Source: Gari tellinella
Taxonomy: Eukaryota > Mollusca > Bivalvia > Cardiida > Psammobiidae
Assembly: GCA_922989275.2 (NCBI GenBank)
Contig: OV277871.1
Location: forward strand, 6,696,001 to 6,760,000
Direction of reading: 5' to 3'
Length of the DNA: 64,000 nucleotides
The notes beneath the pieces were generated by a model. It ran no database searches. It worked only from the letters and a program-made list of their open reading frames with translations, and was not told the DNA's origin. Both the position numbers and the translations under genes were made by a program. Of the stretch, positions 1 through 63,128 are shown piece after piece (positions within the stretch are counted from its first letter, which is position 1; every line of letters begins with the position of its first letter).

Positions 1-210
1 TTTACGCTAAAACTATTATTTGCAGTGCAAACAGTTTGGAGCCAGATCAGACGCCTGGTAACCCGGCGTCTGATCAGGCTCAAAACTGTTTGCCACCAAG
101 ATAAACAAGAATTATCATAATTGTCCAAAAGTTGTTCTTTTCTACGTTTTAGTGTTTTGCGTTTGCGTACGTATGCGTTTAAACGGGAAAGAATAACAGA
201 TTCTCCACTG
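1..210. mobile_element. Pal-A MITE, cut by window start
   Basis: Contains the central palindrome (CAAACAGTTTGGAGCC ... GGCTC..AACTGTTTG) and the right end, GGGAAAGAATAAC ... TCTCCACTG followed by TA. The left end lies outside the window. Confidence 0.85.
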
Positions 211-299
211 TAACTCTTTGCATGCCGAAGATTGTTTTCGTCTGCAACAAGTGTCGTCTGCTACTGTTTTAAAAACAGAATTTTCTAAATTTCTTTTAA

Positions 300-539
300 C
301 CCTTTCGCTCTCAATGACGCTTAAAATCGCGTATGCAAACAGTTTGAGTCCTGATCAGGCGCCGCGTGACGCAGCATCTGATCGTGCTCCAAACTGTTTA
401 TTACTCGTTTTGAAATTTCTTCAGTCATACTGCCTTATCTTTTAACTTTGAAACGATTTTGCAGACAACAAAACTGAAGCAGTCGACAATGAAACGGTGA
501 AGGGGTTAATATCTCACGAAAATATTGGCAGTGTAAGGG
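300..539. mobile_element. Pal-B MITE with TTAA target duplication
   Basis: TTAA occurs on both sides (296-299 and 540-543), with ends CCCTTTCGCTC and GTGTAAGGG. The central hairpin CAAACAGTTTGAG/GATCAG is present with some mutations. The CAGACGACAA-type right arm is family-typical. TTAA plus CCC...GGG resembles piggyBac-type non-autonomous elements. Confidence 0.8.
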
Positions 540-599
540 TTAAAACACCAGTGTCAGAGTGTCAAATAGTTTGAAACTTTATCAGTTTAATAAATCGTA

Positions 600-760
600 C
601 TCACATACGTCGAACATGTTAGTATTTCAAAGTTAGAATCTCGATTAACCACGTGTGCCCCTAAAGCGAGCTCGAAGTTCAAATTTCGGCTCGTAGTTAA
701 GAATGTCTCCAATGCTTTCAATATCTACGTATCATGTTGTTTTTTTGTGTGAAATTACTT
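600..760. repeat. Diverged fragment of the 23655-23847 MITE family
   Basis: CGTCGAACATGTTAGTATTTCAAAG followed by cassette-like sequence up to GCTCGAAGTTC matches, imperfectly, the interior of the element at 23655-23847. The ends are not recognisable. Confidence 0.4.
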
Positions 761-866
761 TTCTTAACGCCAATACTCGTCTCACAGCATATTCATCGCT
801 TATGTATCGTATGCTTTTATTCGTAAAGTTTAGAAATTTATGTCGTTCGATCTAAAAAGCTTTTAA

Positions 867-1107
867 CCCTTTCGCTCTCAATGACGCTTAAAAGCGTGCT
901 TGCAAAAAGTTTGGATCCTGATCAGACGCCGCGTTACGCGGCGTCTGATCAGGGTCCAAACTGTTTGACAATCGTTTTGAAATTTATTCAGTCATATTGC
1001 CTTATTTTTTAATTTTGAATCGACATTGCGGACAACAAAATTGAAGCAGACGACAATGAAATGATGAAGGGGTAAAAATCTCACGAACATGATGGCAGTA
1101 AAAAGGA
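867..1107. mobile_element. Pal-B MITE
   Basis: Flanked by TTAA (863-866 and 1108-1111); starts CCCTTTCGCTCTCAATGACG; near-perfect core around the loop CGCGTTACGCG at about 930-940. The right end is degenerate (AAGGA instead of AAGGG). Confidence 0.8.
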
Positions 1108-1230
1108 TTAAATTGGTGGCAATGATGGTGTTTATGATACAAATATTTGGATGTGAGCGCCACCTTGGTGTGCCAGGTATCTCCTTCATTGTCTTACTAC
1201 CCGAATACAATGGCTCTTTAAAACAGTTTT

Positions 1231-1390
1231 GATTAACTCTGCGTCTGATCAGATTCCAAACTGTTTGCCGTCTATGTTAAAATCAACATTCAGAATTGTC
1301 AAGAAATTGTAAGTTTCTACATTTTATTGCAATGCATTTGCGTTTCGTTTGAGTTTAACGGGAACGAATTACGTCTTGTCAACTGGATTT
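1231..1390. mobile_element. Pal-A right-half fragment
   Basis: Begins within the core (GCGTCTGATCAGATTCC), continues through the family-typical arm (GCATTTGCGTTTCGTTTGAG) and decays near ACGTCTTGTC. The left half is missing. Confidence 0.65.
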
Positions 1391-1410
1391 GCGTTTTCCT
1401 TGAGGGCTAA

Positions 1411-1601
1411 TCTCGTCACTGCCTTACCCCGAGTACAATGGGTATTGCAAACAGTATGGATACTGTTCAGCCGCCGTGTTACGGGGTGTCTAATCAGGAT
1501 CCAAACTGTTTAACGCTTATTTTCTCAGTATAAAACCCTTTGTTTTTAGAAATTAAAGCAAAGGACAATTGAAAGCAGATGACGTCATGTCAATGACGGG
1601 G
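1411..1601. mobile_element. Pal-E MITE, reverse orientation
   Basis: CACTGCCTTACCCCGAGTAC, mutated core (loop GTGTTACGGGG), then GATGACGTCATGTCAATGACGGGG cut here by TTAA at 1602-1605. It ends about 190 bp before the receptor exon at 1790. Confidence 0.65.
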
Positions 1602-1789
1602 TTAAAGACATTGCAAATCACGAAATCTGGACAACACTGGGTAAATGTGACTGTGTGCATTCCTTTCCATTGCCAATCACGCAAACCTCGAACAAGATTA
1701 AAACCACACGAAAGAAGATATCTTAATGGCATAGGGTTAGTAACAGAGACCATGAATAGTCACAGGAAAAATTGTTTTTATTGTTTCAG

Positions 1790-1913
1790 GTATTTTGTCA
1801 TTGTAATGCCTATGAAAAGCAGACGAAAATGTACGTTTGGGAATACGAGACGAATTTTAATAGCCGTTTGGGTTGCATCAGTGATTTTATCAACACCTAC
1901 TCTCTACATCAAG
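1790..1913 (+). CDS. Class A GPCR, internal exon (end of TM3 / DRY, loop 2, TM4)
   Basis: Preceded by a polypyrimidine tract and TTTCAG, and ended by AAG|GTAAGT. The first base completes the arginine of a DRY-type motif (phase 2 intron), followed by 41 codons beginning YFVIVMPMKSRRKC, a typical intracellular loop 2. A hydrophobic TM4 stretch (ILIAVWVASVILSTPTLY) with the conserved Trp follows. The product would be a seven-helix plasma membrane receptor coupling to heterotrimeric G proteins. An intron inside the DRY codons is a recurrent position in animal GPCR genes. The exon ends in phase 0, matching the next exon at 8482 across a 6.6-kb intron. TM1-3 exons were not found in bases 1-1789, so the gene continues upstream of the window. 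The ligand cannot be assigned; the pattern is that of peptide receptors (CCK-, QRFP- or trissin-receptor-like is a guess). Confidence 0.85.
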
Positions 1914-1936
1914 GTAAGTCACAGATTCACTAGAAC

Positions 1937-2191
1937 GTTAACCCCTTCACTGTCATGACGTCATGAACATTTGTCGTCTGCTTAACCCTTAGCCCGCCAA
2001 ATAAATTGTCGTCTGCTATATTTCTCGTCTGCTTCAAGTTTCAAAGTGTTTCGAAGTTGCTCAAAATTGCTGAAAATGTTGTCCGAGTGTCAAACAGCTT
2101 GGATCCGGATAAGACGACGAGTTACTCGGCGTCTCATCCGGATCCAAGCTGTTTCCATATGGAGCTATAGTCGTGAGTGGCAGGCTAAGGG
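1937..2191. mobile_element. Pal-E left fragment abutting a complete Pal-Bs MITE
   Basis: CCCCTTCACTGTCATGACG at about 1942 is a Pal-E end that stops at GTCGTCTGC. A complete Pal-Bs follows at 1986-2191 (CCCTTAGCCCG ... GGCTAAGGG), flanked by TTAA on both sides (1982-1985, 2192-2195), with core loop ACGAGTTACTCG. It starts 24 bp after the exon donor site at 1913. Confidence 0.75.
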
Positions 2192-2240
2192 TTAATAATT
2201 CTCAGATTTAAAGTTTAGGTATTGGAGCCCCTGCGTTTTA

Positions 2241-2481
2241 CAGTGGGAAACCATTATTCTTTCCCAATGAACGCGTTTACGCTAAATCTATTATTTCGCA
2301 TGCAAACAGTTTGGAGCCTGATCAGACGCCGGATACCCGGGCGTCTGATCAGGCTCCGAACTATTTACCGTCCAGGTTAAAATCAACATTCAGAATGTAA
2401 CAAAGTTGTCATTTTTCTTTTTTGCTATGCATTTGCGTTTCGTTAGAGTTTAAACGGGAAAGAATAACGTTTTCTACACTG
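2241..2481. mobile_element. Pal-A MITE
   Basis: Left end CAGTGGGAAACC preceded by TA, then TTCTTTCCCAATGAACGCG; core at about 2303-2370; right end TAACGTTTTCTACACTG. Confidence 0.8.
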
Positions 2482-2499
2482 AAGGAACTACACGTATCT

Positions 2500-2715
2500 G
2501 TTTCACTGTCAGGTTTTAAAGACATTCCCTGACCTACCTTCGGGGATAATCCTTTGTAGGCCAGTAGAGTTGTGTGCATATCTGTATTACTTGGAATCTT
2601 TGAAGCGTCTCATGTGAGGCCCGGCAGTTATATTTGATAGTTTGGTTAGAAATATCCATTGAAATACCTCTTGAGTATGAATATGTCTGGGCCTCACTAG
2701 GCAAACTGAGAATGG
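2500..2715. repeat. Dispersed repeat, second copy at 15290-15510
   Basis: Shared phrases in the same order: TTAAAGACAT, TTGAAGCGTCT..TGTGAG, TATATTTGATAG.TTGGTTA, CCATTGAAA, GAGTATAAT and GGTAAACT-like. The family is unknown and no ends are visible. Confidence 0.55.
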
Positions 2716-3411
2716 TTTAGCATAATTATGCTGCATGCTCACGCCGATCGAGACTAATGGGGGAGTCCATTAAAAGACTTTAAGCTGTCATTTTCAGTTA
2801 ATACTACTAATAAGCCTTCCTGTAGGTGGTCTTAATAGAGGGATTTTCCTGCATGTTAACAATTATTATGGTGGCCTGTCGTCTGCTTCAAAGATACATG
2901 TAACGTCTGCGAAAAGAAACAAACACTCAAAATTAGTTTAGCGCGATTTAAACAGAAAAAGTGGCTATGACTGTCAAACAGCCTTGGGCTAAACTGTTGG
3001 CAAATGTTAAGAAAGTCGGATTGAGCACGATAATGTTAACACAAATCGTGCAGATGTTTCTGTTATGGCTTCGAAGGCACGCAAACTCGAGTGACAAGGC
3101 AATCCAACAATGACGTGTTTGATATCTAAAGACATGAAAGAAATATGGCTGCTATCCTCTTTCCTTGTCAGGATAACACCATATTTATTATGATCTTTAA
3201 GAAGTTTTATGATATGTTGATATAGTAGAGTAGACGTTATTCTGTCCAATTAAAACAACACTAAATTATGCACAAGAATGAGCAAATGACAATGTTATAA
3301 AAGCTTCGACAAAACTGCCGACATTTCTAGCGATGTTTTGGTCGCTCTAATTACGAGGAAATAAAACAGACGACAATGATAGTGCAGACGGTAAAGTTGG
3401 TAGTGAATAAG
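2716..3411. other. Intron sequence with little structure
   Basis: A short Hx-H-like scrap lies near 2820-2855 (TGGTCTTAATAGAGGGATTTTCCTG split by mutations). Otherwise I see no coding exon, repeat end or RNA gene. Confidence 0.5.
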
Positions 3412-3415
3412 TTAA

Positions 3416-3625
3416 CCCTTATACTTCCGAATATATGCGACTCGACTGGTATTTGCAAACAGTTTGGATACAGACCAGACGCCGCGTGACGCGGCGTCTG
3501 ATCTGTATCCAAACTGTTTGATAACGTTCTTTAAGTCTCTTCTTTTCAGAAATATGTAAAAAATTAAGTTGCCAACTTTTGCAGACGACAATTGCAAATC
3601 AGACGATATTACGACAGGATAAGGG
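3416..3625. mobile_element. Pal-Bs MITE
   Basis: TTAA then CCCTTATACTTCCG; perfect core with loop GCGTGACGC; right side GCAGACGACAAT ... GGATAAGGG followed by TTAG. About 210 bp. Confidence 0.8.
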
Positions 3626-4099
3626 TTAGCAGAAGATGTTACCATAAACATGCCACTTTAGCGTCTGGAGGGTAGCGTTGGTAACGACTTCCATGGTGTT
3701 AATGGGATGCTTCTTTACCTTCCAATTATCAGTGTCAGGCATCTTTGACAGATACAACACTCGATTGTCATGGCTACCAAATAAAACCAATTAGTTAAGA
3801 CAAAGACTATTGCTAGTCACGTAAAGCAGCTGATCTAGATGTTCGGTGGGTGAAGCATTATTGCTTGTTAAAACGAATTTAAACATAAGCGCAATGAAAT
3901 AAAATTGTTGTAAAATTAAGGAATTAAGGATGTTTGGAAATGTATCAGACCGTTTTTCTTAGGGGCAGCGAGTTTGGGACCTTTTCTGGCACCGAGTTCC
4001 ACCCAAGAACGTGGAAAGGGACCCAACATTGTATTAAGGGACAAACGGCACAAGTACACACGCATTTTGGGATGGAATTACGTGTTTCCAGCTATGCTA
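3626..4099. other. Unassigned intron sequence
   Basis: No recognisable gene or repeat end. The only longer frame here has no coding character. Confidence 0.4.
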
Positions 4100-4226
4100 C
4101 ACTGGAGAAGACGTTATTCTTTCTCAATAAACGCGTTCCGCTGAAATTATAATTTCCATTGCAAACTATTTGGAGCTAGATCAAACCCGGCGTCTGATCA
4201 GCCTCAAAACTGTTTTCCACTCAGAT
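4100..4226. mobile_element. Truncated Pal-A MITE
   Basis: Left end CACTGGAGAAGACG after TA, then AATAAACGCG and a shortened core (left inner arm deleted). It stops at CCACTCAGATGG. Confidence 0.7.
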
Positions 4227-4359
4227 GGTGTTTCAAAATAGTTTATAACTTTTTGTTTCACACAAATTTCTCGGTATCTGACTGAAAAACAGTTTGCAAT
4301 GAATACCTTAATGGGAGAAAAATTGCATTACAGCTGACAGCTGGCCTATGCTTGAAGTA

Positions 4360-4716
4360 CAGCGCTCCCTCTCTACAACGACACCTACTGGGAGACAAAA
4401 TTGTGTGTGTTGTTTGGAGAGAGTCTTTATAGGGAGGGACATTGGTTAACATTAGCAAACAGCTTGAATCCAGATCAGACGCCGCGACACGCGGCGTCTG
4501 ATCTGGATTCAAGCTGTTTGTCACTCGTCATTAAGTTTTGTTCTGTCAAAATGTCCAATATGTAAATTTGAGAAAACCAGCAGACGATAATTTTAACCAG
4601 ACAATATTGCAGCAGTGAAAGCGTTAGACACAATTGTACTGTTTAGAGAACTGCGGCTAGGGTCGTTGTAAGGAGGGAGACGTTGTTGGGAGGACCGTTG
4701 TAGGGAGGGAACACTG
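4360..4716. mobile_element. Pal-I MITE, complete
   Basis: TA-flanked ends CAGCGCTCCCTCTCTAC and GTAGGGAGGGAACACTG. The core uses the Pal-I arm (CAAACAGCTTGAATCC .. GGATTCAAGCTGTTTG) with loop CGCGACACGCG. 357 bp. Confidence 0.85.
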
Positions 4717-4819
4717 TATAAGATACAAAAGGTTTAGCTCGAAAGAATAGTTTCCCCTAAGTGCATGTATGTTGCTTTAGGGCGTATTCAGAGCCTCACC
4801 TGCAAGTCACGACGTTATA

Positions 4820-4875
4820 AGAATTAGCAAACAGTTTGGATCTAGATAAGGATTCAAACTGTTTGAAACTCGTTT
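4820..4875. repeat. Collapsed core of a Pal element
   Basis: GCAAACAGTTTGGATC followed directly by GGATTCAAACTGTTTG: the outer arms remain and the central GACGCC hairpin is gone. Confidence 0.6.
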
Positions 4876-7861: not shown

Positions 7862-7899
7862 TCAACTATGAAATACATGTACAGCTATGTGAGACTTAA

Positions 7900-8380
7900 C
7901 TCATTATCCCCTGAACTTTCCAATGGACAATTCCAGCTTGCAAGAAAGGCTGGTCCATTTTTGACTATTTAGGGTTGATTCTTATGATATTTTACAAAAT
8001 TACAAACAGTTAAGACCCTGAACAGATGGCTCCTGTAGGAGCCCTCTGAGCAGGGACTTCACTGTTTGCATAGGACAAGTATACTATTCCAAAATTATTT
8101 TATAGTCGCATATCCAAATACGTTTAAACTTACATGACAGTTTCGGCACTCCGTTGGAGTGCCTTCTTTTGACTGTGAAATTGACCAACAGTCTGAAGAA
8201 GGCACTCCAACGGAGTGCCGAAACTGTCATGTAAGTTTAAACTTATTTGGATATGCGATTATAAAATAATTTTAGAATTGAATATTAACTATCCTGGTGA
8301 ATTTCTTTCGTGACAAGTATACTCTTCACAAGTATACTTTTGGTAAAAGACGCATATATGCGTCACTAGGGCTCAATGAG
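7900..8380. mobile_element. Pal-G MITE interrupted by a foldback element
   Basis: TTAA flanks at 7896-7899 and 8381-8384; ends CTCATTATCCCCTGAAC and GGGCTCAATGAG. The core is GGCTCCTGTAGGAGCC with outer arms GTTAAGACCC / GGGACTTCAC. The right arm is split by the insertion at 8086-8311. Confidence 0.85.
8086..8311. mobile_element. Foldback element inside Pal-G
   Basis: Long inverted repeat, 8086-8170 against about 8195-8278 (CATGACAGTTTCGGCACTCC and complement). GACAAGTATACT occurs just before (8074-8085) and just after (8312-8323), while other Pal-G copies carry it once, suggesting a 12-bp target duplication. Confidence 0.75.
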
Positions 8381-8481
8381 TTAAGCGAGCTCCATTACTT
8401 TTCGAATTTCAACTGAAGAAGTTGGTTTTTATTTTTTATCTCGTATAGAGTTTCGATTGTATCTTTTGTTATTGTCTCCAG

Positions 8482-13563: not shown

Positions 13564-13567
13564 TTAA

Positions 13568-13789
13568 CCAATTTATACTCAGTGGATTCTTCCATGTTTA
13601 TATATTGGATTAGTTCATTTTTTTATCATAGGGATGTCTGGTCAAAATTTTCATTTTCATTTTGTTTTATATTGAAATTCCTATCAGCAAGCATTGTAGA
13701 CTCTGATCATACGCCGCATAATGCTGCGTCTGATCAGAGTCAACAATGTTTGCCTATGTCCCATATTTTGGATCGTGGGCACAAATGGG
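13568..13789. mobile_element. Pal-D MITE
   Basis: Follows directly on the TTAA at 13564-13567: CCAATTTATACTCAGTGGATT ... GGGCACAAATGGG then TTAA at 13790. Core loop CCGCATAATGCTGC. Confidence 0.85.
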
Positions 13790-13867
13790 TTAATACGCAA
13801 AAACCTTATGTGTTGTTTTTTTTACAATGGACAACCAATTCCTTTCAAATGTACTTTCTATTTGCAG

Positions 13868-14095
13868 CTTGTAATGAACTGTATGCCGTACATACAGTCC
13901 TGTATCAACCCGTTCATCTACTGTGTCATGTCCAAAAGCTTCAGAAAGAGTGTTGTGACGTCATGCAACATTCAAGCTCATAAATTACACTGTAATGGTA
14001 GACGTTCAACGCTTCAGGAGTTTGAGATGGAGTCCAAAGTAAATGGAGCAACATGGCAAACATTAGCAAGAGCGAGTAGATCGACAAGCGACTAA
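13868..14095 (+). CDS. Class A GPCR, terminal exon (TM7 and cytoplasmic tail)
   Basis: The acceptor CTATTTGCAG ends at 13867; reading in phase 0 gives 75 codons and a TAA stop at 14093-14095. TM7 contains SCINPFIYC, matching the NPxxY activation motif. Next comes MSKSFRKS (helix 8), then cysteines that could be palmitoylated (TSCNIQAHKLHC) and a Ser/Thr-rich tail ending STSD, typical of receptor kinase sites. The exon starts 78 bp after a Pal-D MITE and the stop lies 13 bp before a Pal-A MITE, so the 3' UTR begins in transposon sequence. Across the five exons about 283 residues are present, consistent with a receptor of roughly 400 residues lacking TM1-3 here. Confidence 0.92.
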   Translation, partial: LVMNCMPYIQSCINPFIYCVMSKSFRKSVVTSCNIQAHKLHCNGRRSTLQEFEMESKVNGATWQTLARASRSTSD

Positions 14096-14108
14096 CAGTA
14101 TACATGTA

Positions 14109-14354
14109 CAGTGGATAATCTGTTATTCTTTCCCAATAAACGCGTTTACGCCAACTCTATTATTTGCAGTGCAAATAGTTTGGAGCCAGATCAGACGCCG
14201 GGTAACCCGGCGTCTGATCAGGCTCCAAACTGTTTGCCACCAAGATAAACATGAAATATCCGAATTGTCCAAAAGTTGTACTTTTCTACGTTTTAGTGCT
14301 TTGCGTTTGCGTACGTTTGCGTTTAAACGGGAAAGAATAACAGATTCTCCACTG
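14109..14354. mobile_element. Pal-A MITE in the receptor 3' UTR
   Basis: TA-flanked; ends CAGTGGATAATCTG and CAGATTCTCCACTG, where both arms carry the same variant (TCTG/CAGA) compared with the common AACG/CGTT. Core loop CGGGTAACCCG. Confidence 0.9.
14135..14140 (+). promoter_or_regulatory. Candidate poly(A) signal AATAAA inside a MITE
   Basis: This is the first AATAAA after the receptor stop codon, 39 bp downstream. It is part of the left arm of a Pal-A element (CCCAATAAACGCG). Whether it is used is not shown by sequence. Confidence 0.35.
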
Positions 14355-14365
14355 TATCAGTTATA

Positions 14366-14726
14366 CAGTACTCCCTCCCTATCAGCGAACCTCTGAACAA
14401 CGAGTCCCTTCTCACAACAACACTTCCCGGTGTTCCCGTAACAAGACAATTATGTCCAAACTTTTCATATCTGCAATATCGTCTGCTTCAAAATATTGTC
14501 TGCTGGGTTTTTTTCAAAGTCACATTTTGGACATTTTGACAGAAAAAAACATAATGACGAGTGACAAACAGCTTGAATCAAGATCAGATGCCGCGTTACG
14601 CGGCGTCTGATCTGGATTCAAGCTGTTTGAAAATGTAAGCCAATTTCCCTCCCTATAACAACTCACTCCGAACAACATACACACTCTTTCTCTCCCATCG
14701 GATGCTGTTGTAGAGAGGGAGCACTG
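14366..14726. mobile_element. Pal-I MITE, reverse orientation
   Basis: TA-flanked CAGTACTCCCTCCCTATC ... TAGAGAGGGAGCACTG; core CAAACAGCTTGAATC with loop CCGCGTTACGCGG. It starts 11 bp after the preceding Pal-A. Confidence 0.85.
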
Positions 14727-14819
14727 TAGCACATTGATATGTGTTGGTTCAGTATTCTATTCCGTATAAGCGAAGCTAAGCGCAAAACAATCATCATGAT
14801 GAAGAAAATTTACAATTTG

Positions 14820-16174: not shown

Positions 16175-16283
16175 TAGCGTGTAAAAGCATCTCTATGTGG
16201 GAAAGTAAATGTGATAAAAGGCGTAAATGGGAAAGGGTTAATCAGTTCACTTCAGATCCCGACTGTTCTGCTACAAGCAATTA

Positions 16284-16844
16284 CAGCGCTCCCTCTCTAC
16301 AACGACACCCACTGGGAGACAAAATAATGTGCGTTGTTCGGAGGGAGTCGTTATAGGGAGGGAAATTGGCTTACATTTGCAAACTGCTTGAATCAAGATC
16401 AGACGCCGCGTAACGCGGCGTCTGATCAGGATTCAAGCTGTTTGTCACTCGTCATTAAGCTTTTTGTCTGTAAATATGTAACGTTGAAAAAACAGCAGGC
16501 GACAACCTTAAGCAGACAATATTGCAGACGTGAATACATGTAGGTTGGACATACAGTAAAACCTCTCTATTACGACCACTAAATTATGTTAATTATTAGG
16601 GTGTTTACGATAGGTGACCGCTTAAAGCAATGTGACAGTGAAACAGAAAGCTCCTACAGGAGTTTTCTGTTTCACTGCCACCTTGCTTTAAGCTGTCACC
16701 TGTCTATTAAATAATCAATTAGCCTTCGTTTTAGTGGTCGTAATAGCGAGGTTTTACTGTAATTTTTATGATCGGGAAAAGCGGCGAGCCTCGTTGTGAG
16801 GAGGGTAACGTTGTTCAGAGTGCCGTTGTAGAGAGGGAGCACGG
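16284..16844. mobile_element. Pal-I MITE interrupted by Hx-H
   Basis: CAGCGCTCCCTCTCTAC ... TGTAGAGAGGGAGCACGG; core arms CTTGAATC with loop CCGCGTAACGCGG. It is split at 16554 by a complete Hx-H. Confidence 0.85.
16554..16759. mobile_element. Hx-H MITE nested in Pal-I
   Basis: TA-flanked ends CAGTAAAACCTCTCTATTA and CGAGGTTTTACTG; hairpin CAGAAAGCTCC / GGAGTTTTCTG. Sequence on either side rejoins the Pal-I consensus (GGACATA + A). Confidence 0.92.
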
Positions 16845-17180
16845 TACATAGAGCTTCAGGTGCAGGTCTATTTCGGCATCTTTTCAGTTTCCTAGCGGTT
16901 TGATCTATAAATGGCGTTGCTTCTCTTTTCGAAGGCGTAAAATCTCAACCGACATAGAGTTAATGAAGGCAACACTTTATATGTGTCTTAATTGTTTAGA
17001 AATGTTAACTGATAATTGTTTTATTTTACTACTTATCGTACTCTGATAGGGCATTTTCTTTGTCAATTGGAATGTTCGTAGTCTACATTGAAGAGGACGC
17101 TTTTCTCCCCAAATACAGTAAACAAGTTTGTTTTAATTCAATTACTACAATTAATTTACTCTTACTAAAAACATGCATGC
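16845..17180. other. Unassigned sequence
   Basis: No gene or repeat end is recognised. Confidence 0.35.
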
Positions 17181-29393: not shown

Positions 29394-29514
29394 TATTTCA
29401 AACTATGCTAAATCATAGTTCAGAACAAGCGGGCAGTTGACGAGAATGGCCAATCGCTGTACGTAGAGTTCCTATATTTGTCCGATCTTTCTCATTAGGG
29501 GTCATCATCCTAAA

Positions 29515-29757
29515 CTCTTTCCTCCCTGAAACTTTAAATGGACAATTCCAGTTTCCACTTAAGTCTGGTCCATTTCTGACTTTTAAGGGTTGTTTTTGTC
29601 AATGTTTGGCCTAATGACAAACAGTGAAGACCCTGATCAGAGGGCTCCTTTCGGAGCCCTCTGATATGGGTCTTCACTGTTTGCACAGGACAAGTGTACT
29701 ATTCACATGTACACTGTTTAAAAAGGACGCCTATATGCGGGACTAGGGTTCAAAGAG
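29515..29757. mobile_element. Pal-G MITE
   Basis: CTTTCCTCCCTGAAAC, core GAAGACCC/GATCAGAGGGCTCC with loop TTTCGGAG, right end GGGTTCAAAGAG before TTAA (29758-29761). Confidence 0.85.
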
Positions 29758-29966
29758 TTAATTTGTGAAAGTCAGCGACCATATATAAATGAGTGTCTTT
29801 ATTTAGATACACAGTGGGAGTATATATTATTTTTCTTAATAGGCATATTTACACAATCTATCTGTCAAATGTCAACAGGTTAAAGCACGATCAAACGCAG
29901 ACTAACCCAGGGATATTTTAGACTCCAAGCTGGTGGCCATGCACTCAGATTGAAAACATTCATTAA

Positions 29967-33455: not shown

Positions 33456-33522
33456 GTATTAGCTTAATGGTTTTAAGGTTTTGTTTGAATTAGAGTCTCA
33501 ACCTCTAAGGGCTCAATTTTAA

Positions 33523-33767
33523 CCCTTTCACTCTCAATGACGTTCATAAGCGGATTTTTGTAAACAGGCTTGATTCTGATCAGACGACGCTTTACGCGGC
33601 GTCTGATCAGGATCAAAACGGTTAACCACTTGTTTTGAATTTACGTCAATTAATCTGCCTTACAACTAATTTAATATGAAACGATATTGCAGACAACAAT
33701 ATTGAAGCAGACGATAAAATGGCGTTGAAGGGGTAAATACCTCATACAAATTTTGATCATGAAAGGG
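33523..33767. mobile_element. Pal-B MITE, complete
   Basis: TTAA on both sides (33519-33522, 33768-33771); CCCTTTCACTCTCAATGACG ... GATCATGAAAGGG; core loop CGCTTTACGCGG. Confidence 0.9.
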
Positions 33768-33771
33768 TTAA

Positions 33772-36719: not shown

Positions 36720-36972
36720 CAGGGACCCGTCTTACGAAACGTCGTACGACAAAAAGGGTCGTAAGTCAAACTATTAAAATACATATACATGTAGTTTATT
36801 ACTTCTCCATCTAATCCTGTCGTATGACATCTCTTTGGAATAGTCTTGAAAAGACGATTCCAAACAGATATGATAAGAAAGAATTTGATGGAGAAATAAA
36901 TAATAATTGAGAAATTTAAAATCTGACTTACGGCAATATTTGTCGTACGACGTTTCGTAAGACGGGCCCCTG
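36720..36972. mobile_element. MITE of the CGTCTTACGAAACG family (copy 2)
   Basis: Best preserved copy: CAGGGACCCGTCTTACGAAA ... CGTAAGACGGGCCCCTG, inverted repeat over 30 bp. Central TTTGGAATAGTC / GACGATTCCAAA hairpin. 253 bp. No clear target duplication. Confidence 0.88.
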
Positions 36973-37045: not shown

Positions 37046-37390
37046 GTTTGAACCTTCTGGATAAATAATAATGGCGGGGGATAAAAGCAACTAGTTCAAA
37101 TAATAGGATACGTACAGCAGTTATACCGGTTGGCCTAAGTTTTAGCTTTTTACGGTTCGGTAATCTTTCCCGTTAAAAATCACAAAATGGCTAGAATCAG
37201 AGATACATGTATATTAGAATTATACACAACTAAACTGTTCACAGTGGTTATGTACCTGACAGTTGGTTTTAACTCATTTCATCATTCATCGGTGCTACAT
37301 GATGTGTTCAGTGTAGTAGTACCGTAAAACCCGACTCCATCCACCAGCCATGACCTTTACAATTACTAAAACAAATTACCATTGCTTTAA

Positions 37391-37599
37391 CCCCTTCACT
37401 GCCATGACGTCATCAAAATTTAACAATTGTCGTCTGCTTCCATTTCTAAAAGACATTTTTTAGGTATTTTGACTTAAGAAATATTAAAACTAGTGTCAAA
37501 CAGTTTGGATCCTGATCAGACGCCGCGTTACGCGGCGTCTGATTAGGATCTCAACTGTTTGCAAATAACTATTGCACTCGGGATAAGGCAGTGACGGGG
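37391..37599. mobile_element. Pal-E MITE, complete
   Basis: TTAA both sides (37387-37390, 37600-37603); CCCCTTCACTGCCATGACG ... AAGGCAGTGACGGGG; core loop CCGCGTTACGCGG. 209 bp. Confidence 0.92.
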
Positions 37600-37666
37600 T
37601 TAATACCATATTAAAGATCTATACTTTTAAGATGGTTGGCTACTTCTATTATTTTATGCATAAACC

Positions 37667-39583: not shown

Positions 39584-39801
39584 CAGTGGAGAAAACTTTA
39601 TTCTTTACCAATAAACGCGTTTACCTTAAAACTATTATTTCCATTGTTAACCCGGCGTCTGATCAGACTCCAAACTGTTTGCCACTTAGATCAAAAAATA
39701 AAAATCAGAAATGTCAAAAAATTGTAATTTCCTACATTTTAGCGATTTGCGATTGCGTTCCGTTTGCGTTTAAACGGGAAAGAATATCGTTTTCTCCACT
39801 G
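39584..39801. mobile_element. Pal-A MITE, left core arm deleted
   Basis: TA-flanked CAGTGGAGAAAACT ... CGTTTTCTCCACTG; after CCATTGTTAACCCGG only the right arm of the core remains. Confidence 0.88.
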
Positions 39802-42602: not shown

Positions 42603-42771
42603 TAGCATTTATCATCAATGCCTTTGATTGTTTTGTCGTTTGTGAATGAGAAGGTAGAAAGGTTAAGTGTTTGTTGTCAATTGACAAACTTCTTATATTA
42701 AAGATAGATGTGCATTTGCTTCACACATCATGTACAAATATTATAAAGCGTTGGAGTTGAGTCTGATGTTG

Positions 42772-42836
42772 TTCTCAAGCATTTGATTGGTCAAATGTGA
42801 GCCTAGGCTAAAATCTGACCAATCAAATGCTTGAGA
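42772..42836. repeat. Short foldback
   Basis: TTCTCAAGCATTTGATTGGT ... ACCAATCAAATGCTTGAGAA, loop about 25 bp. Perfect 20-bp arms. Confidence 0.85.
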
Positions 42837-43149
42837 ACTACTTCAGACGCACACAAAAGCTTTGTTACATTGGAGCTTGGAACTATCTGACAATACTAGC
42901 GTGGGCTTGATAACCTTTTTAAGAACTAAGTCTTGTATAATTAATTGTATTTTCATGTTATTCGACTGTCGCTTCAGGGAATACGTTTCTTATTTTCTGA
43001 ACCGTACTTATATCGGTAGTCATGTTCTTGTTTTTGTAAAATATGTCACGTGGAATTAGCTAGACACTATTGTTAACAAAATATCACTGGAAGGCATGGT
43101 CACGGTCTATATAACAAGCTAGCCCTGAGACTGTTACACGGGCATTGGC

Positions 43150-44760: not shown

Positions 44761-45195
44761 CCCATAACCTGTTTCTTGTTGTAAAGATCTGCCTTATTTT
44801 CAGCCTGATTTAACCCATTACCCCATTGACTGTTTTACGTTTTTAAGATAGTTGACCATTTAAAGCAGGTAGAAAGTAAAGCAGAATGTGCCTTCAGGCA
44901 CATTCTACTTTACTTTCCACCTGCTTAAGCTATTATCTGCTAGAATATCGAAGATATCTTTTATGATTCTTATTTGTGACAGTGTAAATTGGAACTATTT
45001 TCTTCAGTAGAGGGATAAATCAGAGGTGTAAAAAGACGAATTTATGGGGTAATGGGTTAAGCTACCCTCTGATAGGATATAGAAAATATTTCCTATGGTT
45101 CATGTTCAGTATTGGATACATTAAAACTACTTTCTTTAGTGGCGGGATAAGTTGGATGCGCTAAAAGGCGCTTCTATAGGGGAATGGTTTAGGAA
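44761..45195. mobile_element. Three Hx-F pieces: a scrap, one complete, one truncated
   Basis: The scrap 44761-44809 (CCCATAACCTGTTTCTTG) starts right on the previous TTAA. The complete copy is 44814-45056, with TTAA on both sides (44810-44813, 45057-45060) and the hairpin AGAATGTGCCTTCAGGCACA. A right half at 45062-45191 follows (TCTGATAGGATATAGAAAAT). Confidence 0.85.
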
Positions 45196-54211: not shown

Positions 54212-54304
54212 TGATAACAATACTCATTATTCATTGTCCATTTGAATTTTTACTACAGCTCTATTTGACAAATGAGCACTGATGGACATTAAATAGTAGG
54301 TTCA

Positions 54305-54547
54305 CCCATTTGAGCCCAGTGGATTCTTCCGTGTTTATATATTGGATTAGTCCATTTTTTTTATCTAAGGGGTGCCTGGTCAAAATTTTCATTTTCATTT
54401 TGTTTTATATTTAATTCCTATCAGCAAACAGTGTGGACTCATATCAGCAAACAGTGTAGACTCTGATCAGACGCCGCATAATGCGGCGTCTGATCAGAGT
54501 CTACACTGTTTGCATATGTCCTATATAGGACCGCGGGCACAAATGGG
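54305..54547. mobile_element. Pal-D MITE
   Basis: CCCATTTGAGCCCAGTGGATT ... GGGCACAAATGGG then TTAA (54548-54551). Perfect core with loop CGCATAATGCG. An internal tandem doubling of CAGCAAACAGTGT.GACTC lies at 54422-54462. Confidence 0.92.
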
Positions 54548-54771
54548 TTAAGAAACAAGGCCGATATGATGAGAAACGTGCTTAATCGAACTGCCAGAAA
54601 ACATAAAAATGAATGGGTAAATTAGGAAATGAACCATTAACATCTATTTCACATACATTTATATATTATTTCCACATTTAGTCAGCAGACAGTTTATTGT
54701 ACTTTACGTAACTATATACCGGTATACATGTAATAAAGTATTTCTGATTGTAAAACATATTCAGTGGAGAA

Positions 54772-56640: not shown

Positions 56641-56649
56641 TGTTAACGT

Positions 56650-56850: not shown

Positions 56851-59458
56851 GAAAATAATTGTTTTTCATATAATTTTAATTGGATGATACCCCAAGTAGT
56901 GCCGTATTTGTAACCCTGACTTGCTTGTTGTTGTTTTATTGCTATTTGTACTTACATTGAATTTGTTTATGAAGCCTTTGTTTATGTCCAAAGTTTGTAT
57001 TGTTTAGGCCAGTAGTGGTTTATAATAATATTTTTCCAATAAACCATTCAAGGAGATGTCTCAGGCCAGCAGTATGGTTTCAATTTACAGGGTGTCCTAA
57101 AAAACGGAATTCTAGTTCAAACGTATATATTTTCTAAAGTAAACATACACTTTAAATTAAAATACGCTGTTTTGTAGAGACACCAATTTTACGTTATTTG
57201 CAAAATTGCATATAAATTATGCACTGATTTTTAAGTTATGCGTATTTTAATGAAGAACGCTAAAATTCAATTTTACATTATATGTCTTGTTGTGAGATTA
57301 CGCAAAACAGCTTGTTTTGCTCTGTTAAGACATAGTCTAAACAGTACATGCAACTGTTTTATTGTTTTACCTGTATACGTATCAATTGTCCAATAAACCA
57401 ATCAATCAATCAAATCAAATACTCTGAATTTTCTCAGTTTGTACAATTCTACAAATACATATGAATTTTCCTAACACACATTCAACACATTAGGTCAGGT
57501 ACATATTTTATAATACAAACATCAATTATAGTTTCTTAACTAACTGTTAGCTAACTTCGAACGAAAGAGAACAGCATTCATTGTTTTAAAATTGGTATTT
57601 CTAGTAAATACTTGGGTGATGCAGGTTATATCCCGCAATTTAGCCAAGATTTAGCCATGTCCACCTTTGACACGTATAATAAACGACATTTGGTTGAATG
57701 AAGTTTGCCTGGTGTTACGAGAACCAGCACATATACATGCTGCACATGCAAATTAAGTCCACTTAGTCGTAATATTTTTTAAACAAAAATTATTATAAAT
57801 TGCCTGCCATTTGAGCGTATTTTCAGCATGCTGGTCAGTGCATACATGTACACCAATGGCGGTTACGAAACACTACGCAAGTTTAACTTCTTTAATTTCG
57901 TCAGATAAATATTGTCAATAATTTTTTGCGCTGTTTATTTCATTACCGATCAATCTGTACAGTTTTACATCCATGATATAACCATATTTTGTTTTGGTTT
58001 AAAACAGGACATGTAAATATTTCTAAGTTATTTAGAAATACTCCTGTCTTGCAGAGACGCTGTGGTAAAAAATGACATTTGTATGTTACGTTGGGTTTTT
58101 CATTTAGAATAGTAAAGAAATGTTTAATAACCGATAAAGCAAAATGAAATTGTATTATAGACAATAAAATAAATCCAAATCAATTGGTGTGATGTTTGAT
58201 TCAGTTTTTTCCTTGACCTTCTTATTCGCAGACAGACAAATGGTATTTTGACCGATTTGTTGGTATTGTTTTACCTCCCTTCAGTCCTATAATTATCAAG
58301 CTATTGCCTTTGTATCTAGTGTCGCCCGTTTAATATTTATTTTAATATAAGTGTTTCAGTGTCTTATCTTGTACACAACTGTTCACAAATGTCATAGGCG
58401 ATTGGTTTAGCCGTAAATGGAATGGGATTTACCTATAAGCAATGATTTTAGCTCTGTGTTTTATCAGGAATAAGGTCTTACAGAAAATTACGTGATGTGA
58501 TATCTCCTAAGGTGGATCAAAATGTCGATGTTTCGAGTTTTACGGCAATATCGTGTGTATATAAAGCTCTATACGAATTAAATTTCTCCTATAGCAACGT
58601 GTTAATTGTAGACCAAATAGGATTGGCATTACAGAAGAAATGTGTTTATTAGCGTTGCTCGATTCTATAATTATTCCGTATTCTTTTGTTTCCTAAATTA
58701 CACTGTGATCGTTCGTCTACATTTTATTCTTTATTTCTGAGACTCTTAAAGTGTCTGATCATATTGACGACAAATATATACAAAACGTTATTATTGGCAT
58801 ACATGAAGTCTGTGTTAAGCTGCTACTCAATAATAAGGTATGGGGATATAACAAATACCTTATTTATGAGCTTTCTGCATTTCTCTATTCCTGCATTTAG
58901 CTGTGACTTTTATACATGTATAAGCCAGTCAATTACAATAAATTATCTTTTAAGTTGACGCTGAAGATACAAGTTGTACACTATATAATAACCAAGACAC
59001 ATCACTAATTGTATTGATGTTGACGGGTTTAAATGCATGTTTTAATTATAGCAGTGCTATAAAAAATTATATATATGTATACATGTATATATTTATATGC
59101 ATATACATTAGTATGAAAACCATATATATGCATATGCATAGCTATGAATAACCTTAATCCTTATTTGTTAGACAACAGTATTACCGCAAGTAATATTATA
59201 GTGGTAAGACGGTTTTATAAGTGAAGCTAAAACGTAACTGTGACAGTAGGGTTGTGAGTTTGACTAAATAATTCCATGTATGAGCAATTGCATGCAGCTT
59301 TTCTCACTATTTGCTGCAGCCCTGCAAAGGATTCCTTTCACCGCGTTACTAGCAATTTTGATCAAGGTCACGGTGCATTAATTCTAATAGCTCACCCCCG
59401 CTAGGCGACTCTCAAAATAGCAATGTTCAAATACGTTACGTGTATTCGTGCATTATCT
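56851..59458. other. Repeat-poor AT-rich sequence
   Basis: Nothing supported as a gene. CAATCAATCAATCAAATC at 57401-57418 could be a LINE tail. The short frames at 57943 and 58686 have no domain or splice context. Confidence 0.4.
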
Positions 59459-59462
59459 TTAA

Positions 59463-59672
59463 CCATTTCATGATCAAATTATTAGGGAGATTTTACCCCT
59501 TCACCGCTTTATTCTCTACTGCTTCAGTAGTGTTGTCTGCAAGACACGTTTCAAAGTTAGATTAAAGGTTGTATGACTTAATAAATATCGATAAGAATGT
59601 CAAACAGTTTGGGTTCTGATCAGAGGCCGCATTACGCAAACGCGATGTATGGCGTCATTTAGAGTGAAAGGG
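59463..59672. mobile_element. Pal-B MITE, reverse orientation, half core
   Basis: TTAA flanks (59459-59462, 59673-59676); CCATTTCATGATCAAATT ... TTAGAGTGAAAGGG. The left core arm is present (CAAACAGTTTGGGTTCTG), the right arm deleted. Confidence 0.85.
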
Positions 59673-60036
59673 TTAATAAAGTTGCAGTGGGTCAAAATAT
59701 TAAATTGAGTGTTTGTTTCTAGCATGAGGCATACATTGACAAAATAAACAGGCGACACTTTCCAAGCCTGTAATACGACGCAAAATAATTGAACGCTTTC
59801 TTCAATTGGTTAAAACGTCTTTTTTTGCATGGAAATAGAAAGTGCATTTCGCTATAAACGCTTCTCATGTTGACTTTTATGTGGATTATTTGATTTTAAA
59901 TTCTGCCCCGTTTATTTTTACGTTCAGGACTGATCTTAACACTTATTTTTAAAATATCAATACAGACCCTAACAAGCAGACTCCTTAATGAGAATCCGTC
60001 TGATCATCGTCTATACTGTGTGTAAGATATAATGTA
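59673..60036. other. Mostly unassigned; one Pal-G remnant
   Basis: At 59960-60022 ATACAGACCCTAACAAGC, GACTCCTTAATGAG and GTCTATACTGTGTG look like a worn Pal-G/D core. Confidence 0.45.
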
Positions 60037-60038
60037 CT

Positions 60039-60298
60039 TGGGGTCTTACGAAACCTCGAACGAAAAATTATTGTCGTAAGTCAGATTCTAAAATAGTCAA
60101 TATTTATTTATGTCCACATCTAATCCTGTCTTGTGATATATCTTCTAACTTGTGAAATATCTTTTGAATCGTCTTGAAAGATTATTCCAAAGAGATGTTA
60201 CAAAACAGTATTAGATGGGGAAATCAGAAATTATATGCAGTTTAAGATTTGATATAAACGACCGTTTTATCGTACGACGTTTCGCAAGACGGTCCCCT
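60039..60298. mobile_element. MITE of the CGTCTTACGAAACG family (copy 3)
   Basis: GGGGTCTTACGAAACCTCG ... CGTACGACGTTTCGCAAGAC then GGTCCCC; ATTGTCGTAAGTCAG inner arm. It contains a short internal duplication (TTGTGATATATCTT / TTGTGAAATATCTT). Confidence 0.82.
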
Positions 60299-60603
60299 GA
60301 TTTCCAGTGTATACTGGGTTAATACGTAAACCTCGTACAATGTAATGCAACGAATCCTTAGAAAGGACAGTGGCGATTTCAGCGTCACAAATTCCGGCGC
60401 ATTGACAGTAACTGACTCAAAATAAAATTAATTTTATAAACTAATCATAACATTTCTAAGGTATTAGGTTGTTTACTTATATGTAGATATTTGTCTTTTC
60501 TCACATTGTAAGTACATGAATGTACTTACTGGCATGTGAAGCGCTTTTCAACGCACAACTCCTGTGTGAAAAGAGCATTATATAAATCTGGTACAATAAT
60601 GAT

Positions 60604-60925
60604 GTAAACAGTGTTAAGCGGGTTAAGACGCCGCCTAAATTTGCATTTTATCTGGTTCTAAACTGTTTGCAATGGACATAAATGAGCCGTGTCATGACAA
60701 AACCTGCTTTATTGCATTGCAGCATTGCACAACCCAAGCACCCTTGTCATCCCAGGCTCTGCATCTTAGTTTGGCCTACAATGCCAAACACCGTATATAA
60801 AACTGCTTAATACAGTGCTTTAGATGATTGTGGGTGTCAAACAGAGTAGATCAAACGATGATTTCAATTGCAAATAGTTTGGAGCCAGATCAGACGCCGG
60901 GTACTATTTGCCATATATATTAAAC
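60604..60925. mobile_element. Pal-A scrap, Pal-R (reverse) and another Pal-A scrap
   Basis: TAAGACGCCGCC .. AAACTGTTTGCAATGGAC at 60625-60676. Pal-R at 60680-60858 (GAGCCGTGTCATGACAAAAC). CAAATAGTTTGGAGCCAG and GACGCCGGGTACTATTTGCC at 60869-60911. A mosaic of fragments. Confidence 0.6.
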
Positions 60926-60972
60926 TGAATTGTTAGAAATATTTAATCGTTGACATTTTCTATATAAAGCTA

Positions 60973-61215
60973 CAGTGGAGAAAACGTTATTCTTTCTCGT
61001 TTAAACGCAACCAAACGCAAACACATTGCAAACAATGAAGAAAATGACAACTGTTTGACAGTTCTGAATGTTGATTTTATCCTGGATGGCAAACAGTTTG
61101 GAGCCTGATTAGACGCCGGGTTACCCGGCGTCTGATCAGGCTCCAAACTGTTTGCATTCAAAATAATAGATTTAACGTAAACGCGTTTATTGGAAAAGAA
61201 TAACGTCTTCTCCGG
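60973..61215. mobile_element. Pal-A MITE, reverse orientation
   Basis: TA then CAGTGGAGAAAACG; perfect core with loop CCGGGTTACCCGG; right end AATAACGTCTTCTCCGG, worn. Confidence 0.9.
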
Positions 61216-61371
61216 TCTTCTGATTGGCATTTGACGAAAGAAGCTTTCAAAACAATTTGAATTTTGGTCCAACGCCAACAAAAGTGGTGTCTGATTATGA
61301 GTAAAACCGTGTGAAAATGTTAGGGTAATTGGTCTTGATAGTGAGTGGGAACATGTTATGATATTGTCTGC

Positions 61372-61554
61372 ATCAACCTTTTCACTGCCATGGTGTCATT
61401 AATTTAAAAAACAAGTGTCGTCTGCCTTTATTTCTCAAATTCAACGTTTAGGTATTTTGACCTAAGTTATTGAAAAGAGTAGTAAGCAGTTTAGAACGGA
61501 ACTGTTTGTAAATACATTGTAACTATTATACTCGCGGTAAGGCAGTGAATGGGT
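61372..61554. mobile_element. Pal-E MITE, core deleted
   Basis: CCTTTTCACTGCCATGG ... GCGGTAAGGCAGTGAATGGG then TTAA; only AAGCAGTTTAGAACGG and AACTGTTTG remain of the core. Confidence 0.75.
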
Positions 61555-61990
61555 TAATATTGTCGTTAGTTACGCAAACTATTACAGATCTAACCATTAT
61601 CCATTTATGCATGTTGTTACACGGTGATATTTAGCGGTATGTTTGTTTTCCCCGAAGGAGTAATATCTCTAAAGTGCATAGCCCGATAGAATCACTACTT
61701 CTTAAGTAAAACAATCCTTTAAATATCGCTGCAACAAGGGCCGTTAATTTTGTATTACACTGATATAATATACACAAGGTACCAATTTTGATTTATTAAA
61801 TGTTTTATCTCATTCCATAATATTGCATCATTTCGTATTGAACATCTTAATTACTTTGGTCGATGAAGTCCCAAACATATTTACCTGCATTAAAATACTT
61901 GTTTTGAAAAATATGTGCCATCTGGTGCATATTTCATAACTGTTTAAATAGGATCTATTTTCTTCTGCGTAGAAATAAATTTAAGGCATA
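61555..61990. other. Unassigned; Hx-F right-arm scrap
   Basis: GGTGCATATTTCATAACTG and TCTATTTTCTTCTGCGTAG near 61924-61972 belong to an older Hx-F. Confidence 0.45.
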
Positions 61991-61995
61991 CTTAA

Positions 61996-62238
61996 CCCAT
62001 TACCCCATAGCTTGCTTCTAGTTCTGAAGACAGGTGACAACTTAAAGCAGGCTGAAAGTAAAGCAGAATGTGCCTTAAGGCACATTCTGCTTTACTTTCA
62101 ACCTACTTTAAGCTACCACCTGCTAGAATATAGAAATTATTTCTTATGGTACATATTCATGACTGTATAAAATGGAACTATTTTCTTGAGTGAAGGAATA
62201 AATAAATGCGCTAAAAGGCGCTTCTATGAGGGAAAGGG
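61996..62238. mobile_element. Hx-F MITE, complete
   Basis: TTAA on both sides (61992-61995, 62239-62242); CCCATTACCCCATAGC ... CTATGAGGGAAAGGG; perfect hairpin AGAATGTGCCTTAAGGCACA. Best-preserved copy. Confidence 0.93.
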
Positions 62239-62347
62239 TTAATAAGAAAAACTATCGTCTCTCCCACTCTAAGCAGTAAACCTCAGTGTATTGTAATGCA
62301 ACAGCGATACAATATAAAAACAATTATCTTCCTTCAGCAAGAGTTAA

Positions 62348-62589
62348 CCCTTTCACTCTCAGTGGAATATTAAAGTGCGTTTGCAAACACAGTTTGGGTC
62401 CTGATCAGACGCCTCGTAACGCGGCATCTGATCAGGACCCTAACTGCTAAACACTCTTATCGATATCTATTAAGTCATACAACCTTGTATCTAACTTTAA
62501 AATGTGGCTTGCAGACAAAAATGTTGACACAGACGACAATAAACCGGCGAAGGGGTACAAATCTCTGGAATAATTTGATCATGAAAGGA
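62348..62589. mobile_element. Pal-B MITE
   Basis: TTAA both sides (62344-62347, 62590-62593); CCCTTTCACTCTCAGTGG ... GATCATGAAAGGA; core loop CTCGTAACGCGG. Confidence 0.88.
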
Positions 62590-62938
62590 TTAATACTGGA
62601 AATAAGATACTTAATTTAACTGCTGTAGTAAACGATATTATTAGTATTATATTGCCAAATTAAATTTCCGCTCAGGAAAGTTAATCGCTACATAAGCTCG
62701 AATATAAAGCTAGAATTACATGATGTACAATGTACACCTTACGTATATCTTTTTACGGAGTTTGGGTAACAATTGCGAAAATTTCGTGTATCCAGAATTG
62801 TTTAATACATTGTGTAAAGTGAAACAATATATTAAATTTTATTCAATCATTGAATCCATTTGTTTAATATAAGTCATTTCCGGATGAGACGACGACTAGC
62901 ATATTAATTGTGAAAAGCAACTTGTCAAGTTCTCTTAC

Positions 62939-63128
62939 AATAGAGAAGACGTTATTCTTTCCGGAATAAACGCAAACGAAACGCAAACGCGTTGCACTAT
63001 AATGTCGAAAATGACAACTTTTTTAAATGTATTGGTATCTATTTTAATCTGAGTGGCAAACAATTGAAAGGACATAAAAGTTTTAGCTTAAACGCCTTTA
63101 TTGGCAAAGAATAACATATTCTTCCCTG
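62939..63128. mobile_element. Pal-A MITE with core deletion, reverse orientation
   Basis: CAATAGAGAAGACG, TTCTTTCCGG, GAAACGCAAACGCG; only GGCAAACAATTG of the core; right end AATAACATATTCTTCCCTG then TA. Confidence 0.8.

Follow-up and report, generated by a model that had tools for sequence, protein, structure and literature searches.

How does one palindrome come to lie inside miniature inverted-repeat transposable elements (MITEs) that differ in their ends and their target sites? The question is raised by a 64-kb window of the Gari tellinella genome (C16:6,696,001–6,760,000; genome size 1.6 Gb). In this window, a first-pass annotation had described a hairpin of about 65 bp, which we call Core-1, in elements that duplicate either TA or TTAA. 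We located elements by their terminal repeats and target duplications, built family consensuses and confirmed that the same hairpin occurs within MITEs of both kinds. The TA families are F1 (246 bp, ends CAGTGGAGAA) and F2 (about 360 bp, ends CAGTGCTCCCTC). The TTAA families are F3 (ends CCCCTTCACTGCC), F34 (CCCTTTCATGATC), F4 (CCCTTAGCCCGC), F4b (CCCTTATCCTGC), F5 (one end CTCTTTCCTCCC, the other CCCTTTGAACCC) and F6 (CCCATTTG-like ends). Two further families, F7 and G1, carry a different palindrome that is described below.

All of these families have the properties of MITEs, being short, bounded by terminal inverted repeats (TIRs), flanked by a fixed target duplication and present in many similar copies. 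They are 206–360 bp long and contain no coding frame, as follows from that length. By eye, the consensuses combine short terminal repeats with an internal palindrome, whereas in foldback elements very long terminal inverted repeats account for most of the length. F1, F2 and F7 have the TA duplication and CAGT-like ends of Tc1/mariner-type elements, and F3, F34, F4, F4b, F5, F6 and G1 have the TTAA duplication of piggyBac-type elements. Target duplications were checked without being required in F1, F2, F3, F5, F7 and G1. TA stood on both sides of 26 of 40 F1 elements (TTAA, 0 of 40), 7 of 9 F2 elements and 7 of 8 F7 elements, with mixed bases beyond it in all three families. TTAA stood on both sides of 7 of 10 F5 and 8 of 13 G1 elements and of just 3 of 12 F3 elements, although in F3 each base of TTAA was the commonest at its place. 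The TTAA of F34, F4, F4b and F6 comes from listed elements whose search had TTAA in mind.

The six hairpins that the first-pass annotation had named are all real, with positions that deviate from ours by at most 12 bp (Table 1). Five of the six, leaving out the core at 33561, were folded as DNA and gave −31 to −41.2 kcal/mol, which none of 200 shuffles equalled for any of them. An Rfam scan of the window returned 0 matches at the gathering score, so Core-1 there matches no known structured-RNA family. Genome-wide, a strict Core-1 motif (CAAACAG-N5..30-GATCAGA) matched 364,401 times on the forward strand and 365,135 times on the reverse strand, compared with 171 and 229 matches for the reversed pattern used as a control. 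Because an intact palindrome matches once per strand and a half-broken one once in total, these counts correspond to between about 365,000 and about 730,000 places. A relaxed search found 53 copies in the window and 83 in twenty 10-kb stretches taken at round-number positions, from which we extrapolate to roughly 660,000 copies in the genome; a few relaxed matches are other palindromes (L016_274, L019_8932 and L020_7753). Judged by their flanks, the 83 copies comprise 29 from F1, 21 from the F3/F34/F4/F4b group, 12 from F5 and 4 from F2, with 17 unassigned.

We then compared the element bodies by removing the core, aligning the arms and scoring each alignment against 300 shuffles. The arms of F1, F5 and F6 gave no convincing alignment with any other family. 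Their best scores were weak and lay away from the core (reached by 5 shuffles for F2–F5, 8 for F1–F5, 17 for F2–F6 and 18 for F5–F6). A core-anchored alignment of F1 with F3 was reached by 22 of 1,000 shuffles, rising to 179 of 1,000 without its last 7 bp; for an older F1 subfamily, the corresponding values were 33 of 1,000 and, without the last 8 bp, 320 of 1,000. A candidate alignment of the F1 arm with F2 and F3 was dropped after it failed the shuffle tests. On this comparison, F1, F5 and F6 appear to share little with the other families beyond the palindrome. In contrast, the arms of F3, F34, F4 and F4b are mutually homologous (in none of the six pairs did any of 300 shuffles reach the score), and the long arm of F2 aligned with those of F3, F34, F4 and F4b with scores of 64, 52, 38 and 77, none of which was reached by any of 300 shuffles. 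Because of these homologies, the independent bodies are fewer than the families: F1, F2 together with the F3/F34/F4/F4b group, F5, and F6.

These results bear on whether all the families descend as whole elements from one ancestor whose ends have diverged. Such descent would fit the aligned arms of F3, F34, F4 and F4b as well as the AAAGGGTTAA-like ends that the TTAA families share, yet it leaves the unalignable arms of F1, F5 and F6 and the differing target duplications unexplained, and we consider it very improbable. The first-pass annotation had argued that common descent of whole elements does not account for the sharing; this stands for F1, F5 and F6 and fails within the F3/F34/F4/F4b group. 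Its broader proposal, that one core is found across families with different targets, likewise draws its strength from the unalignable bodies of F1, F5 and F6 and is weakened by F2, which shares a TTAA-type arm beyond the core. We nonetheless consider it highly probable that the module is shared across unrelated MITE bodies.

F2 shows one way in which this sharing arose. Its alignment with F4b runs from the TTAA end of F4b through to the core, and the F2 consensus contains about 105 bp of a TTAA-element arm extending from the TTAA end to the core. Compared with TTAACCCTTTCACTGC, which blends the F3 and F34 ends, the F2 stretch CTAACGCTTTCACTGC was identical at 14 of 16 positions, and the next-best place in that arm at 9 of 16. 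Allowing shifts of up to 3 bases, this fossil end matched the end of F4b at 27 of 33 positions and that of F3 at 20 of 33 (0 of 2,000 shuffles each); matches to F4 (15 of 34; 151 of 2,000 shuffles) and F34 (14 of 34; 519 of 2,000) were poorer, and an unshifted 17-bp comparison, which is one base out of register, was significant for none of the four families. Homology with F4 is confined to the outer arm, as the core-adjacent match fades once the edge is dropped (scores reached by 292 of 1,000 shuffles for F2–F4, 137 for F34–F4 and 507 for F3–F4). Since a left end with its arm, both from a TTAA MITE, is preserved in the F2 consensus, F2 is an old nesting of a TTAA MITE in a TA MITE, in which the far end was lost and the composite multiplied. 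The alternative that the first-pass annotation had set against its own proposal, that the core is merely an inserted element, thus applies to F2 in the form of a nested TTAA MITE. A present-day nesting of TTAA in TA is seen by eye at L048, where a G1 MITE lies within an F7 MITE, with a Tc1/mariner gene inside. We also observed a nesting of TA in TA in the window, at 16282–16846, where an F2 MITE contains an F7 MITE.

The palindrome could instead be a small mobile element in its own right that inserts into MITEs, and the sharing seen in F1, F5 and F6 does stop close to the limits of the palindrome. Against this, one or both flanks could be assigned to a MITE family for 123 of 147 cores from the relaxed search, and 4 of these had a different family on each side. 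The palindrome also has a fixed position within each family, and by eye no direct repeat lies beside it in the family consensuses. We therefore regard a self-mobile palindrome as quite improbable.

Core-1 was clearly the best-conserved part of the element in six of seven families, with divergences of 5–10% in the core, 10–24% in the arms and 10–22% in the ends. For this comparison, the members of each family were chosen because they resembled a single seed, and F4 (3 copies) was excluded. Divergence in the core, long arm, short arm and ends, respectively, was 5.2, 13.9, 10.8 and 12.9% in F1; 6.5, 15.3, 14.3 and 13.3% in F2; 9.2, 16.1, 15.3 and 14.8% in F3; 10.1, 17.4, 16.2 and 19.3% in F34; 8.4, 16.7, 23.7 and 21.7% in F4b; and 6.9, 12.1, 10.4 and 9.9% in F5. 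A second set of 26 F1 elements, chosen by their ends and TA alone, had changes at 59 of 1,690 core positions (3.5%), 97 of 1,034 positions in TIR bases 11–30 (9.4%), and 219 of 2,254 (9.7%) and 75 of 856 (8.8%) positions in the two arms; the 14 of 520 (2.7%) in the terminal 10 bp is a value set by the way the elements were selected. In the 12 youngest F1 elements, the figures were 1.2% for the core, 3.5% for TIR bases 11–30, 2.7 and 6.1% for the arms and 1.3% for the terminal 10 bp. Seven pairs of F1 ends without a detected core were inspected: in one the core had been missed by the search, one was not F1-like, and five had five different losses within the core.

To compare pairing, we used 102 family-assigned cores with both arms in strict register and eight family consensuses of 31 pairs each (the F4 consensus being built from 2 copies and that of F6 from 4). 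Fourteen of the 31 pair columns vary between the consensuses, and 12 of these are paired in all eight families; the remaining two are paired in seven and six of the eight, the latter being T–T in F1 and F5. Single copies carried 315 changes on one arm, 26 matched changes on both arms and 11 unmatched changes on both. As these changes are mostly on a single arm, copies evidently decay out of pairing while the family consensuses stay paired. Low core divergence, taken together with paired change between families, suggests that multiplying lineages retain the pairing. Cores also sort by family: the majority of the five nearest cores gave the correct family for 99 of 102, compared with a mean of 34.6 and a maximum of 50 for shuffled labels. 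Capture of the core therefore looks old and rare, and the ongoing exchange between elements that had been suggested finds no support.

A second palindrome, which the first-pass annotation did not mention as shared, behaves similarly. Core-2 (72 bp, distinct from Core-1) is common to the TTAA family G1 and the TA family F7. Ends were located for 10 of 35 G1-type copies (9 TTAA and 1 TA) and for 6 of 16 F7-type copies (all TA), with one copy counted in both lists. The consensus Core-2 arms of G1 and F7 are identical at 29 of 36 bases, a match that none of 500 shuffles equalled. Four comparisons of the flanks beyond Core-2 were equalled by 0, 17, 139 and 364 of 500 shuffles; just the first is significant, and by eye this match extends the similarity by no more than about 12 bp. 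In G1, Core-2 is better conserved than the arms (28 changes in 575 positions, versus 142 in 878 and 41 in 263; ends, 9 in 87 and 7 in 96). Separately, we observed a third palindrome (inner part GAATCGTCTT...AAGACGATTC) at 36720–36972 in the window, at 2690–2889 in L037 and at 4726–4788 in L025, seemingly under two different CAGGG ends, CAGGGCTCCAGATAA in L037 and CAGGGACCCGTCTTACGA in the window. Further long palindromes that are not Core-1 lie at L016 256–323, L019 8914–8981, L020 7735–7802 and window 42761–42848, the last three of which form one family.

Taken as a whole, we lean towards the reading that Core-1 is a palindromic module that MITE lineages acquired from one another, through nesting or patch capture, and that selection for pairing has kept. 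Its strongest rival is passive hitch-hiking, in which the palindrome was nested by chance and multiplied along with its host, with pairing maintained by hairpin-templated (quasipalindrome) correction alone and the palindrome bringing the element no benefit. F2 is such a nesting, other nested MITEs exist (at L048 and at 16282–16846), and the 26 matched double changes exceed the roughly 4.6 expected by chance. Yet 315 single-arm changes against 26 matched ones make correction after insertion look weak, even as the consensuses are almost fully paired, and correction alone hardly explains why the core has diverged roughly half as fast as the arms. Low divergence is also seen in the Core-2 of G1, though not in that of F7. 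We judge hitch-hiking possible and clearly the less likely of the two. Of the 26 matched changes, 12 are common to several copies and 14 are private, including two in L021_7709, whose core seems to be of F4 type although it was grouped with F4b. The opposite arm thus seems to serve as a template for correction, which perhaps helps to keep Core-1 paired but does not look strong enough to account for the pairing entirely. We think it rather probable that selection, and not just hairpin-templated correction, has kept the palindrome.

Several observations weigh against a module kept by selection. The excess of matched double changes is one, and pairing could be maintained by template-switch correction instead of selection. 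In F6 (4 copies), divergence was 7.3% in the core, 7.5 and 8.0% in the long and short arms and 10.9% in the ends, with no clear difference between core and arms. The Core-2 of F7 was no better kept than its arms (31 changes in 360 positions, versus 27 in 273 and 28 in 274; ends, 6 in 60 and 1 in 60). Low core divergence could also partly reflect few source lineages. No donor-end fossil like that of F2 was shown in F1, F5 or F6. The hairpin, originally placed at or near the centre of the elements, is not strictly central, with arms of 106 and 38 bp in F3 and of 118 and 63 bp in F1. Finally, a given type of palindrome does not always come with the expected ends, because a G1-type Core-2 in L019 lies between TA-type ends.

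A check proposed at the outset was to look for autonomous relatives that carry the core; none was found among 14 of 86 piggyBac matches and 7 Tc1/mariner loci. Both ends could be placed in six of the piggyBac loci (L031, L032, L035, L036, L040 and L042), and none had a full Core-1 between them; L040 contained a loose half-match that by eye is no core. Ends were not located in the other eight (L029, L030, L033, L034, L037, L038, L039 and L041). None of the 7 Tc1/mariner loci had Core-1 as the element's own part, and none was a transposase-bearing partner with F1 or F2 ends, 150 of 1,441 candidates having been scored. L048 was considered as a transposase partner of F7 and rejected, as it consists of nested MITEs around a transposase gene. 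In each of four comparisons, F4 ends matched those of the piggyBac element L042 at 13–14 of 16 bp, with the inner end bases reached by 1, 2, 6 and 18 of 300 shuffles; the other TTAA families had no clear partner among four piggyBac elements with defined ends. Families on unrelated ends probably need different enzymes.

In L035, a piggyBac element with a transposase (980–3682) occupies precisely the TTAA that forms the loop of an F5-like core and is 99.7% identical to the copy in L036. Exact loop junctions of this type (GGGTTAAGGAGCCCTCTGATC) number 387 genome-wide, with 0 for the control. A candidate explanation is that the TTAA in the loop of the palindrome serves as a preferred landing pad for TTAA elements. 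A local scan for further loop insertions yielded no clear case besides L035.

In the model that we propose, the palindrome would be an internal MITE module that is independent of the transposase moving the element. In F2, a TTAA MITE landed in a TA MITE and lost its far end, and the composite multiplied. F1, F5, F6 and the G1/F7 pair may have acquired their palindromes by similar nesting with loss of the donor end, or by ectopic patching during gap repair. Once inside a short element, a hairpin or cruciform may aid multiplication whatever the enzyme. Our preferred guess is a flexible hinge that would bring together ends about 200–250 bp apart, although a hinge function in particular is doubtful; the hairpin might alternatively provide a site for a host protein, affect replication or act as an RNA hairpin.

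Table 1. Elements and palindromes in the window
Feature	Positions	Target site	Ends	Palindrome	Basis
F1 MITE, 246 bp	14107–14356	TA	CAGTGGAGAA-like		Terminal repeats and duplication
Core-1 of that F1 element (Pal-A)	14172–14236				Folded
F2 MITE, 357 bp	4358–4718	TA	CAGCGCTCCCTC/CAGTGTTCCCTC		Terminal repeats and duplication
Core-1 of that F2 element (Pal-I)	4456–4520			31/31 pairs intact	Folded
Second F2 MITE, opposite orientation to 4358–4718	14364–14728			Core-1 present	
F3 MITE	37387–37603	TTAA	CCCCTTCACTGCC	Core-1 (Pal-E), 37497–37561	Core folded
F34 MITE	33519–33771	TTAA	CCCTTTCACTCTC and CCCTTTCATGATC	Core-1 (Pal-B), about 33561–33625	
F4 MITE	1982–2195	TTAA	CCCTTAGCCCGC and CCCTTAGCCTGC	Core-1, 2091–2155	
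F5 MITE	29511–29761	TTAA-type, left site TAAA	CTCTTTCCTCCC and CCCTTTGAACCC-like	Core-1 (Pal-G), 29618–29683, folded	
F6 MITE	54301–54551	TTAA-type, left site TTCA	CCCATTTGAGCCC	Core-1 (Pal-D), 54448–54512, folded	
Second F6 MITE	13564–13793	TTAA both sides			
F1 copy minus one core arm (deletion product)	39584–39801				
G1 MITE	44810–45060	TTAA	CCCATTACCCCA	Core-2, 44863–44926	
F7 MITE, nested in F2 element 16282–16846	16552–16761	TA	CAGTAAAACCTC	Core-2, 16612–16701	

Other features were observed alongside these elements. At 7896–8384 in the window, an F5-like element is broken by an inverted repeat with 97-bp arms (8080–8284). A TA-flanked hairpin of 103 bp at L017 8366–8472 consists of the core and matching outer arms and looks like a core doubled outwards. 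On C1, three stretches of about 3 kb (L002, L003 and L004) lie next to one another in a way that resembles a tandem duplication; L002 and L003 have three cores in matching positions, and one of those cores is also present in L004. An open frame at 1569–1955 in the window has a weak match to a rhodopsin-type receptor (PF00001, E = 9.8e-07; the score of 28.9 bits is below the cut-off, 30.5), and a frame at 13721–14092, beside an F6 MITE, by eye resembles a last transmembrane exon and had no Pfam match.

The closest parallels come from other short repeats. Short interspersed nuclear elements (SINEs) contain highly conserved domains, including CORE and Deu, in which families that differ in head or tail have a central domain in common, and this domain is conserved more strongly than the remaining sequence. 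Core-1 resembles these in being a better-conserved central domain common to families that otherwise differ; SINEs differ in being retroposons, not cut-and-paste elements, and to our knowledge their conserved domains are not defined by pairing. In Stowaway and Tc1/mariner MITEs, internal sequence can raise transposition, which likewise shows that the interior of a MITE can matter for mobility, and we know of no palindrome shared across superfamilies in that system. Searching for the letters of Core-1 in article text found no related context, the five matches being judged unrelated from their listing.

Two published MITEs are also comparable, as far as the consulted parts of the articles describe them. 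MER6/MER6A is a Tc1/mariner MITE that contains the V domain of SINEs (PMC6887750), and it too is a case in which a conserved internal domain moved between unrelated mobile elements and multiplied under MITE ends. It differs in involving a SINE-derived domain and one MITE, whereas here palindromes occur in several bodies, with both TA and TTAA duplications and with paired change on the two arms. AgaP2-P12MITE of Anopheles gambiae is a composite P-MITE (PMC1562414) and is similarly built from two sources; its two ends differ, and the consulted part describes no core shared across families. The same part describes as controversial where the interior of MITEs originates, and it also brings up the copying of an ectopic site that follows a break.

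Our findings touch on two open questions, namely the source of the internal sequence of MITEs and the reason why some MITEs become so extremely numerous. The presence of the same internal palindromes under different ends makes the question of MITE internals testable. We tentatively suggest, while thinking it somewhat less likely than the alternatives together, that MITEs in this genome depend on a transposase-independent internal hairpin that is traded between Tc1/mariner-type and piggyBac-type elements and selected for pairing, so that new families would be new ends on an old hairpin. If true, short DNA transposons would depend for their amplification on a common structural component that is foreign to the transposase's own element, and the sharing of hairpins among MITEs would resemble the sharing of conserved domains among SINEs.

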